From Bacteroidaceae bacterium (lineage in GTDB: Bacteria > Bacteroidota > Bacteroidia > Bacteroidales > Bacteroidaceae): DNA of 64,000 nt. The number at the start of each line of letters is the position of its first letter. The stretch's first letter is position 1. Shown here piece by piece: positions 23,858-50,042 of the stretch. Under the pieces are notes generated by a model, which saw nothing but the letters and a program-made list of their open reading frames with translations, was not told the origin of the DNA and searched no databases. The position numbers and the translations under genes were made by a program. The DNA lies in assembly GCA_024699495.1 (NCBI GenBank), contig JAILPK010000025.1, forward strand, positions 37,107 to 101,106, read 5' to 3'.

Positions 23858-24220
23858 CCGGTAAACCACATGTTCACATGTTCGTTAAGTTCAGCATTTT
23901 GTCAAACATATTTATGCTTATATAACTCTATTTCGAACGGCTTCCACGACCTCATTGAACGAGAGTGAAATGACAGTGAGTCGAGGCATGTTTAATCTGA
24001 GACGGCCGTCTCAGATTCAGGTGACGGCTGTCTCAGATTCAGGTGACGGCCGTCTCAGATTCAGGTGACGGCTGTCTCAGATTAAATTAATGCCGATACA
24101 TGAAGAATTGATAGTCGTTCGACGTAGAGTTGTGAGGCGTGAGAAGTAGAGTTGTGAGACGTGAGACGTAGAGTTATGAGACGTGAGAAGTGGAGTTATG
24201 AGACGTGAGAAGTAGAGTCG
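23858..24220. repeat. Dispersed intergenic element, copy 1 (two consecutive 22-bp arrays)
   Basis: ccggtaaaccacatgttcacatgttcgttaag...; array A ACGGCYGTCTCAGATTCAGGTG (23991-24086); array B GTAGAGTTGTGAGACGTGAGAA (24121-24220). Confidence 0.95.
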
Positions 24221-47316: not shown

Positions 47317-47345
47317 GGCGAACCGCGAAGCAGCGTTTAAGGCTT
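47298..47345. repeat. Dispersed mosaic intergenic repeat, copy b
   Basis: ggaacggcatctaaggtctaaggcgaaccgcgaagcagcgtttaaggctta, alignable to 42000-42066 with a central gap; enters the trmO 3' end. Confidence 0.7.
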
Positions 47346-47512
47346 ATTGCTAACAAGCTTATTGCTAACAAGCTTATTGCTAACAAGCTTATTGCTAACA
47401 AGTTTATTGCTAACAAGCTTATTGTTAACAAGTTTATTGCTAACAAGCTTATTGCTAACAAGTTTATTGCTAACAAGCATATTGCTAACAAGTTTATTGC
47501 TAACAAGTTTGC
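47343..47512. repeat. 15-bp tandem repeat (AAGYTTATTGCTAAC), about 11 units
   Basis: ttattgctaacaagc repeated with C/T variation (aagctt vs aagttt). Confidence 0.97.
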
Positions 47513-47652: not shown

Positions 47653-48297
47653 TTATTTTTCTTCAAAGAAAGAACCTTTTTTCATTTCTGTATTATCTTC
47701 GAGACAGCAATTGTAGTTCTCGCGTGAGCGGCGTTCGCGGGCGAACATCTCAGTTGTTCCCTTGTCGTCTTGCTCAAATTCCAAGTGCTCATCTATAGAA
47801 AAATTATATGCCATAGTCTCTACGTCCAGGTTGCTTGTTCCGATGAGAGTGAATGTCCAGTTGTGTTCCTTCAGTTTCTCAATCAATGTGCGAATCATTT
47901 TCAGCGTCCATTCCTCGCTGCAGTTTTCTTCTCCATCGGTGATTACTGTGACCAGAACGTTGTCATCCTCATTAACCTGGGCATTGAGTTTTGAGATAGA
48001 TCTACCCATTGCGTCGTATAATGGTGTGCCTCCGCAGGGGTCGTAGTCGTTCCATTTCAGGTTATGCGTCTTTGTTGCTGGAGTGTTGTCATATTGCCAT
48101 TTGATTTTATCGCTGTCGAATGTCACAAGGGTAACATATTGCTCTGTGTTTTCAAATTTCTTCTGCATCTGCCTAACTGTTTCCAGGGTTTCGTTCATAC
48201 CTGTGAAGGCTTGTTTGCGGATAATGGACATCGAGCCGCTTTCGTCAACAATAATAAGGTTAAACACGCGCTTTGTCTTTGATGCATTCTTTTTCAT
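47653..48297 (-). CDS. VWA (von Willebrand factor A) domain protein
   Basis: FNLIIVDESGSMSIIRKQAF (MIDAS DxSxS), GGTPLYDAMG, VTVITDGEENCSEEW. Confidence 0.9.
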   Translation of the reverse strand: MKKNASKTKRVFNLIIVDESGSMSIIRKQAFTGMNETLETVRQMQKKFENTEQYVTLVTFDSDKIKWQYDNTPATKTHNLKWNDYDPCGGTPLYDAMGRSISKLNAQVNEDDNVLVTVITDGEENCSEEWTLKMIRTLIEKLKEHNWTFTLIGTSNLDVETMAYNFSIDEHLEFEQDDKGTTEMFARERRSRENYNCCLEDNTEMKKGSFFEEK

Positions 48298-48397
48298 AAT
48301 AGATAATTTAAATTGGTTTAAAAATGAGTTTTCGTTCTTCTTTTATCTATTTAAAGATGATTTTGGAAATTAATTAAGCAGAAATGATAATTATTTG

Positions 48398-48405
48398 TAT
48401 TTTTG
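48398..48405 (+). promoter_or_regulatory. -7 element TATTTTTG
   Basis: 19 nt upstream of ATG 48424. Confidence 0.45.
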
Positions 48406-48423: not shown

Positions 48424-49515
48424 ATGTTTAGGCAGGAACTTTCTGACGAAGAAATATTGGACGGATTCAGAACAGGTGACGGGTATGTCATCCACAAATA
48501 TTTCTACGGCTATTGCCGTGACGGATATAATCTCTTCGACAAACGCTACCAGTTGCGTTCAAAAGAGAATCTGGATTTCATGTCGCTGGCACATCAATAT
48601 GTTATCTATCTGTTGGAGTATAACTGGAAGCCCCTCGAGGACCGTTCGCCGAATATGAGCCTGAAGACATGGTTAATCAACGGTTTCAGATATATCGTGC
48701 TTGATGCGCTTAAATGGCATCATAAGGAATATGGCAGCATTACCTTCCAGGACTATCTGCAGACATTCAGCATGTCTGATGATTTGCGTCTCAAATTCAA
48801 TAAGACGGTTGAGGAGCTTTGTGACAATGCGCCACTTAACCGCTATGACCGCATTATCATCAACATGCTGCTGATTCAGGGCTTCAAGGGCAAGGATATC
48901 GCAGCACAAATCGGGATGACACCATCGGCAGTCTCCCAACGATATAAAAAACTGAAGAATAAGATAATAGTCCCCTTCTTCAGAAAGAATTTCGATATGG
49001 ATATGGATATTGAAATGGATATGGATATGCCGGAAGTGATGAAAAGTTCTGTTGCTGATATTGCAGAATGCCTTCAAACCGACTTCCTCTTGCTATCTGA
49101 TGACGACAACACATGTAAGTTCAGTATTTCCGAACCCAAAAAGGAAATCAAGCGGACTACTTCCGAATATATCTCGTATCTCGAGCCCAATGAGATTTTT
49201 GTATTCGGCAGCAATCTGAAGGGTTTGCATGGCGGCGGAGCTGCATATGCAGCATACCGAAGATTCGGTGCCATAATGGGGCAGGGTGTGGGACTGCAAG
49301 GCCAGAGCTATGCTATCCCTACAATGCAGGGAGGTGTAAACACTATTATCCCCTATGTGGAGGATTTCATCTCTTTTGCCAGAGAACACCCGGATTTGAC
49401 TTTCCTCGTAACCCGCTTAGGATGCGGCATGGCCGGTTTTACAGATCGCGAAATATCGCCTCTCTTCCATGATGCAGCTTCTTTGCCGAATGTAGTTTTA
49501 CCTTATGGATGGTGA
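48424..49515 (+). CDS. Sigma-70-family-like protein fused to C-terminal macro-like domain (A1S_2505-type)
   Basis: N-terminus ELSDEEILDGFRTGDGYVIHKYFYGYCRDGY..., HTH GFKGKDIAAQIGMTPSAVSQRYKKLKNKI; C-terminus NEIFVFGSNLKGLHGGGAAYAAYRRFGAIMGQGVGLQGQSYAIPTMQGG..FLVTRLGCGMAGFTDREISPLF. Confidence 0.8.
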   Translation: MFRQELSDEEILDGFRTGDGYVIHKYFYGYCRDGYNLFDKRYQLRSKENLDFMSLAHQYVIYLLEYNWKPLEDRSPNMSLKTWLINGFRYIVLDALKWHHKEYGSITFQDYLQTFSMSDDLRLKFNKTVEELCDNAPLNRYDRIIINMLLIQGFKGKDIAAQIGMTPSAVSQRYKKLKNKIIVPFFRKNFDMDMDIEMDMDMPEVMKSSVADIAECLQTDFLLLSDDDNTCKFSISEPKKEIKRTTSEYISYLEPNEIFVFGSNLKGLHGGGAAYAAYRRFGAIMGQGVGLQGQSYAIPTMQGGVNTIIPYVEDFISFAREHPDLTFLVTRLGCGMAGFTDREISPLFHDAASLPNVVLPYGW

Positions 49516-49688: not shown

Positions 49689-50042
49689 CCGGTAAACCAC
49701 GTGTTCACATGTTCGTTAAGTTAAGTATTTTGTTAAACACATGAAAGCTTATATAACTCTGTTTCTAACGGCTTCCACGACCTCTTTGAATGAGGGGGAA
49801 ATGACAGTGAGTCGAGGTGTATTCAATCTGAGACGGCTGTCTCAGATTCAGGTGACGGCTGTCTCAGATTCAGGTGACGGCCGTCTCAGATTCAGGTGAC
49901 GGCCGTCTCAGATTAAATTAATGCTGATTCATGAAGAATTGATATTCGTTCGAAGTAGATTTGTGAGTCGTTCGACGTGGAGTTGTGAATCGTGAGAAGT
50001 AGATTTGTGACTCGTTCGACGTGAAGTTGTGAGTCGTGAGAA
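49689..50042. repeat. Dispersed intergenic element, copy 2 (two consecutive 22-bp arrays)
   Basis: Alignable end to end with 23858-24220 in the same orientation; array A 49824-49917, array B 49954-50042. Confidence 0.95.

Follow-up and report, generated by a model that had tools for sequence, protein, structure and literature searches.

In ECF41 sigma factors, a regulatory domain is fused to the sigma factor, and the sole target gene lies adjacent, preceded by a conserved promoter (PMC3426412). The sensors fused to sigma factors have been reviewed as SnoaL, TPR, cysteine-rich, WD40, and similar domains, and none with a macrodomain or a link to ADP-ribose is mentioned there (PMC8999054). ADP-ribosylglycohydrolase-centred systems, predicted to reverse viral ADP-ribosylation (PMC9503650), contain vWA chaperones along with transcription factors of the Nudix or WYL type (PMC9503650, section 3.8); A1S_2505 is not named in that source. 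The A1S_2505 family (NF049995, phrog_2072) is usually free-standing and is named only as 'phage non-structural protein'; a literature search on A1S_2505, DUF1810, and ECF-macro returned nothing relevant.

The window analysed here, a 64,000-nucleotide stretch of Bacteroidaceae DNA from a Prevotella-type gut bacterium, harbored a gene in which a sigma-like half was fused to an A1S_2505 domain (Table 1). The new components described here were the vWA gene facing this fusion and the 36-bp two-box element between the two genes, the latter present in essentially one copy per genome. The fusion and ECF41 shared, as judged by computation, a fused C-terminal domain, one adjacent target, and a conserved promoter, but they differed in that (i) ECF41 had a SnoaL-like C-terminal domain, while the fusion had A1S_2505 with a predicted macrodomain fold, and (ii) the predicted target of the fusion was a divergent vWA gene, in a Bacteroidota host. 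By this analogy, ECF41 would be the closest working precedent: the fusion may work like an ECF41 sigma factor and is not an ECF41 member. The systems of PMC9503650 and the present one shared a vWA partner and ADP-ribosylglycohydrolase, NrtR–Nudix, Macro, and Sir2 genes in the neighbourhoods, and the transcription regulator of the present system may, as suggested by the fold, likewise bear a sensor domain of the ADP-ribose type. The regulator here was a putative sigma factor while theirs was a repressor, and the ADP-ribosylglycohydrolase here was encoded not in the same locus but by another operon elsewhere in the genome (contig C84). The fusion had the whole C-terminal domain in common with the A1S_2505 family, and it had the predicted fold in common with TARG1/ALC1- and DarG-type macrodomains, Poa1p, and bacterial PARG, its GCGxAG loop being aligned with RIGCGLAG of macrodomain 5e3b and GCGVFG of bacterial PARG; compared to these proteins, the fusion domain was composed of ~120 residues and displayed no significant sequence similarity. 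The best reading of these comparisons would be ECF41-type logic with a new sensor, operating within an ADP-ribose-processing network.

Table 1. Features of the fusion locus (coordinates are those of the window)
Feature	Coordinates	Strand	Remarks
Sigma–A1S_2505 (macrodomain-like) fusion gene	48424..49515	+	363 aa
ECF-type sigma2–sigma4 part (putative), residues 1–190	48424..48993	+	TIGR02937, hhalign, Foldseek
Variable acidic/Met-rich linker, residues 191–243	48994..49152	+	32% pairwise identity, no invariant residue, tandem repeat
A1S_2505 domain with predicted macrodomain fold, residues 244–363	49153..49512	+	NF049995, AF2, Foldseek
Two-box element TTATCTcTTTgAAGA-N-AAAAATTAAG, 36 bp	48343..48378	.	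Between the start codons of the fusion and vWA genes
TATTTTTG, possibly the promoter from which the fusion gene is read	48398..48405	+	Match to TAnnTTTG
vWA gene (MIDAS, DESGSM...GGTPLYDA...TDGEEN), probable target/partner	47653..48297	-	Head-to-head with the fusion gene; co-occurrence

The fusion gene was a single intact ORF (ATG at 48424 and stop at 49515), and both of its halves were retained, with a variable linker between them, in ~35 distinct full-length homologues from Bacteroidales/Prevotella; identity was mostly 57–68%, and many Prevotella and Bacteroidaceae genomes were represented. The claim of the first-pass annotation that a sigma-like region and a macro-like domain are joined in one protein was thereby borne out, and the HTH GKDIAAQIGMTPSAVSQRYKKLKNKI and the C-terminal pattern VFGSNL...GGGAA...GQSYAIPT...FLVTRLGCGMAGF that it had quoted were both present exactly as given. 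Across 30 distinct sequences, the sigma, macro, and linker parts displayed pairwise identities of 75%, 85%, and 32% and contained 55, 61, and 0 invariant residues, respectively. Since an even sample of the order, comprising 344 genomes, contained no close sigma half beyond that of the window's own genome, the fusion looks lineage-specific. Loci from separate searches overlapped, and the counts given here are counts of loci, not of independent lineages.

The linker started with six in-frame GATATG repeats (window 48994–49029), whose slippage by whole units would alter linker length without a frameshift. A Met immediately ahead of the macro-like domain (the residue before KRTTPEF) was found in 26 of the 30 fusions, among the relatives L022–L043, and it was absent from the fusion of the window; in the fusions that have it, an internal start yielding a free macro domain is possible. 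In plasmid pE2-28 (NZ_CP091789.1), an open 371-aa sigma–macro fusion was recognized (L116:5251–6366), of which the gene table lists the last 124 aa only, the sigma half being unannotated in the record.

The sigma-type nature of residues 1–190, as proposed in the first-pass annotation, was upheld by profile and fold comparisons. The fusion-family alignment matched the ECF sigma factors encoded by the window's genome in hhalign (prob 88, E 3.6e-7, 168 columns) from region 2 through region 4, with controls at ≤0.3. Foldseek matched the N-terminal AlphaFold model, itself of modest confidence (pLDDT 68.9), almost only to sigma factors in PDB (AlgU, SigmaE/SigE, SigH, and WhiG among the top matches). 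This half thus had the ECF (group 4) arrangement of sigma2 plus sigma4 without sigma3, together with a sigma fold, on a weak model with a best Foldseek E of 0.011; it scored below the curated cut-offs of TIGR02937 sigma70-ECF (31 bits against 42.9, E 1e-7, with the match peaking over the region-4 HTH) and of the Pfam sigma regions (region 4, 20 bits against 25.7). More distant relatives scored nearer the curated cut-offs than the window copy: the divergent relative L103 reached 39.4 bits and passed the Pfam Sigma70_r4 cut-off (26.9 against 24.1). A PDB sequence search with the whole protein gave nothing useful, and one with the N-terminal profile gave winged-helix regulators over the HTH and no other matches. 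Most invariant residues of the sigma part were located in the core-binding sigma2 region. The N-terminal half was accepted as sigma-like on these profile and model comparisons, with a predicted sigma activity. For H1/L111, a relative of the N-terminal half, descent from a phage was not accepted, its 4-kb 'Bacteriophage sp.' scaffold having the look of bacterial chromosomal DNA.

The C-terminal domain belonged to the A1S_2505 family by NCBIfam NF049995 (138 bits where the curated cut-off is 45, E 1e-40), it also matched phrog_2072 (5e-33), and every family-invariant A1S_2505 residue was retained in the fusion. Its AF2 model was confident (pLDDT 92.5, pTM 0.88), and the top Foldseek matches in PDB were nearly all ADP-ribose-binding-type macrodomains (TM 0.58–0.71, prob up to 1.00, E 3e-3 to 0.1, none at E 1e-3), including Streptomyces 5e3b, Poa1p with ADP-ribose, TARG1 with ADP-ribose (TM 0.71), and DarG (TM 0.67–0.68). 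A PDB profile search gave four matches, all weak; three of them had the macrodomain fold, namely 5e3b and two sequences of bacterial PARG, and the alignment fell on the GCGxAG loop. The Pfam Macro profile (PF01661) gave no match, and no signal was obtained when the A1S_2505 profile was compared with that of a small alignment of three MacroD sequences. The earlier designation 'macro-like' was thus sustained by the fold, while classical Macro sequence profiles did not detect the domain; since they had no match, A1S_2505 is best modelled as a divergent member of the macrodomain fold outside PF01661, an assignment based on predicted fold plus weak motif matches. The domain would accordingly be a candidate for ADP-ribose binding, a prediction that is strengthened by the gene neighbourhoods (see below). 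In the viral library, A1S_2505 was also found as part of large phage proteins, including one with the name ART-PolyVal-like, and several phage copies were annotated as ADP-ribosylglycohydrolase, macro, or ADP-ribosyltransferase, these names being the depositors'.

The divergent vWA gene contained complete MIDAS motifs. It was arranged head-to-head with the fusion in 44 of 53 fusion loci, whereas of 47 free A1S_2505 loci only 2 had a vWA neighbour; some of these loci were redundant copies. vWA and A1S_2505 were also found in one ORF, in L014:802–1893 (a free-domain locus) and L191:1246–2580. The two-box element between the start codons was asymmetric, lay at a median of 45 nt from each start codon in 30 loci, had a spacing of 36 in 28 and of 37 in 2 of these, and displayed a mean information of 1.56 bits per column versus 0.57 and 0.92 in its flanks. 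A pattern search found one good copy in the window's own genome, and the element was matched in 29 of the 31 genomes searched, nearly always as one copy with 0–1 mismatch located at the gene pair. Where the pair was split (L034 and G261), the element stayed with vWA, and the fusion had none; in L100, it was found beside the fusion without vWA. vWA orthologues of 72% identity were present in two genomes of one genus that had no fusion, and the element was absent upstream of them (scores -10.9 and -7.7, compared to ~44–67 in fusion loci with the common spacing). The simplest reading is that the element is the vWA promoter, recognised by the fusion as the one member of the pair that binds DNA; it is probably recognised as a promoter by the fusion sigma and most likely read toward vWA. 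The reading of the fusion as a regulator, made in the first-pass annotation, was supported and made concrete by the vWA gene and the shared element, neither of which had been mentioned there.

Ahead of the fusion gene, TATTTTTG matched the Bacteroidota housekeeping -7 consensus TAnnTTTG and may be part of the promoter of that gene; the T-run/ATTTT was conserved in relatives. Free A1S_2505 genes with the element were considered as independent regulon members and were dropped from that role; they are likelier to be fusions that lost the sigma part, because remnants of the fusion were retained: the initial sigma codons in L051, and the last stretch of the fusion linker in L026, L048, and L054. 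The element was decaying in three of these four loci.

A1S_2505, fused and free, kept company with ADP-ribosylglycohydrolase, NrtR–Nudix, Sir2, Macro, and DUF1810: (i) in the window's own genome, an NrtR–Nudix regulator, an ADP-ribosylglycohydrolase, and DUF1810–A1S_2505 were arranged in tandem, ~20 nt apart, on contig C84 (L162:6209–9024); (ii) an ADP-ribosylglycohydrolase ORF followed the fusion gene by 6 nt in L029; (iii) ADP-ribosylglycohydrolase with Sir2 and/or Nudix was present near the fusion in L026, L033, and L045, and an ADP-ribosylglycohydrolase, Sir2, or Nudix gene near that of L116; (iv) ADP-ribosylglycohydrolase–A1S_2505 fusions were found in L077 and L078; and (v) a canonical Macro gene was located near A1S_2505 in G006. 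There was no ADP-ribosylglycohydrolase beside the window gene, and among the 82 fusion entries, a recognisable ADP-ribosylglycohydrolase or Sir2 gene was located within 3 kb in just a handful; the ADP-ribose link at fusion loci was therefore real but not tight. Hardly any literature on DUF1810 was found within the searched library.

These data are considered to favour, by a modest preponderance, an ECF-like sigma factor that is a one-component regulator: its sensor would be the fused macro-like (A1S_2505) domain, and it would serve one dedicated target promoter. In the scheme proposed, in which sigma activity, recognition of the element by the fusion sigma, the identity of the ligand, and a biological or anti-phage role are predictions, a housekeeping-type promoter would probably provide basal expression of the fusion gene; the ligand of the macro-like domain would be ADP-ribose, one of its derivatives, or a macromolecule that has been ADP-ribosylated, and its binding would alter the engagement of core RNA polymerase or DNA by sigma2–sigma4; the active holoenzyme would then start at the 36-bp element and raise expression of the divergent vWA gene and possibly of the fusion gene too. 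The vWA protein, as a Mg-dependent (MIDAS) binding protein, together with ADP-ribosylglycohydrolase, NrtR–Nudix, Sir2, and further A1S_2505 copies, would act on ADP-ribosylated targets, these ADP-ribose-processing enzymes being encoded nearby or elsewhere in the genome, and attack by phage or toxin ADP-ribosyltransferases could be one trigger. It is further suggested, tentatively and with some doubt, that the fusion would be the first sigma factor known to be gated directly, via a macro-like sensor, by ADP-ribose or by ligands that carry it, reprogramming RNA polymerase upon ADP-ribosylation (phage, toxin, or NAD stress) with the vWA effector as its only regulon. If true, the macro-like domain would tie transcription initiation to ADP-ribose signalling, and the orphan A1S_2505 family, present in hundreds of phage genomes, would gain a testable biochemical hypothesis, namely that it binds or hydrolyses ADP-ribose; with a single-copy element and a predicted one-gene regulon, the test would be small and decisive.

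In an alternative explanation, the macro-like domain would be an ADP-ribosylhydrolase whose production and dose are coupled by the fusion to an autoregulated sigma factor, with sensing located elsewhere, e.g., in the vWA protein as an anti-sigma factor or co-regulator. Free A1S_2505 genes resembling sigma-deleted fusions were common, so the domain works without the sigma part and may have an enzymatic role instead of a sensory one; free copies were interleaved with fusions on the domain tree with 20 label changes, a tree from which the order of gain versus loss is not recoverable. The hydrolase explanation also draws on the full set of family-invariant residues kept in the fusion, on the genetic company of other ADP-ribose hydrolases, and on vWA as a constant partner that is itself fused to A1S_2505 elsewhere. 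It is nevertheless judged rather unlikely: in known ECFs without an anti-sigma gene, the fused domain usually regulates the sigma factor (PMC8999054), and the element marks vWA, not enzymes.

Still less probable, though deserving some weight, is an N-terminal half that is a sigma-derived DNA binder and no longer a sigma factor, repressing or activating the divergent promoters via the 36-bp element. The sub-threshold sigma scores, the position of the element at 45 nt from both start codons, which is plausible for an operator, and the housekeeping-like -7 box ahead of the fusion would all suit such a binder, but the match to sigma factors runs over the full length of sigma2–sigma4 and includes core-binding sigma2 with most of the invariant residues, and an asymmetric two-box element with a spacing of 36 or 37 bp is promoter-like rather than a dyad operator. 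That the gene is a local fusion or assembly artefact without function, a possibility raised in the first-pass annotation, has practically no probability left: it was refuted by the survey of relatives, with their ~35 distinct full-length homologues, by the 116 invariant residues, and by the conserved promoter element.

Eleven copies of a 15-bp repeat were located between trmO and the vWA gene (window 47342–47507), and a 22-bp tandem repeat unit GACGGCCGTCTCAGATTCAGGT, in ~4 copies, was found at two distant intergenic sites, 24001–24083 and 49832–49914, the latter a short way downstream of the fusion gene. Free genes related to the sigma half were also found, in L106:258–1968 and L109:1507–2995; the gene after that of L106 carried a RyR domain (Pfam, E 1e-31), the neighbours in L109 resembled those in L106 by eye, and the two loci possibly represent another ligand-linked sigma system.
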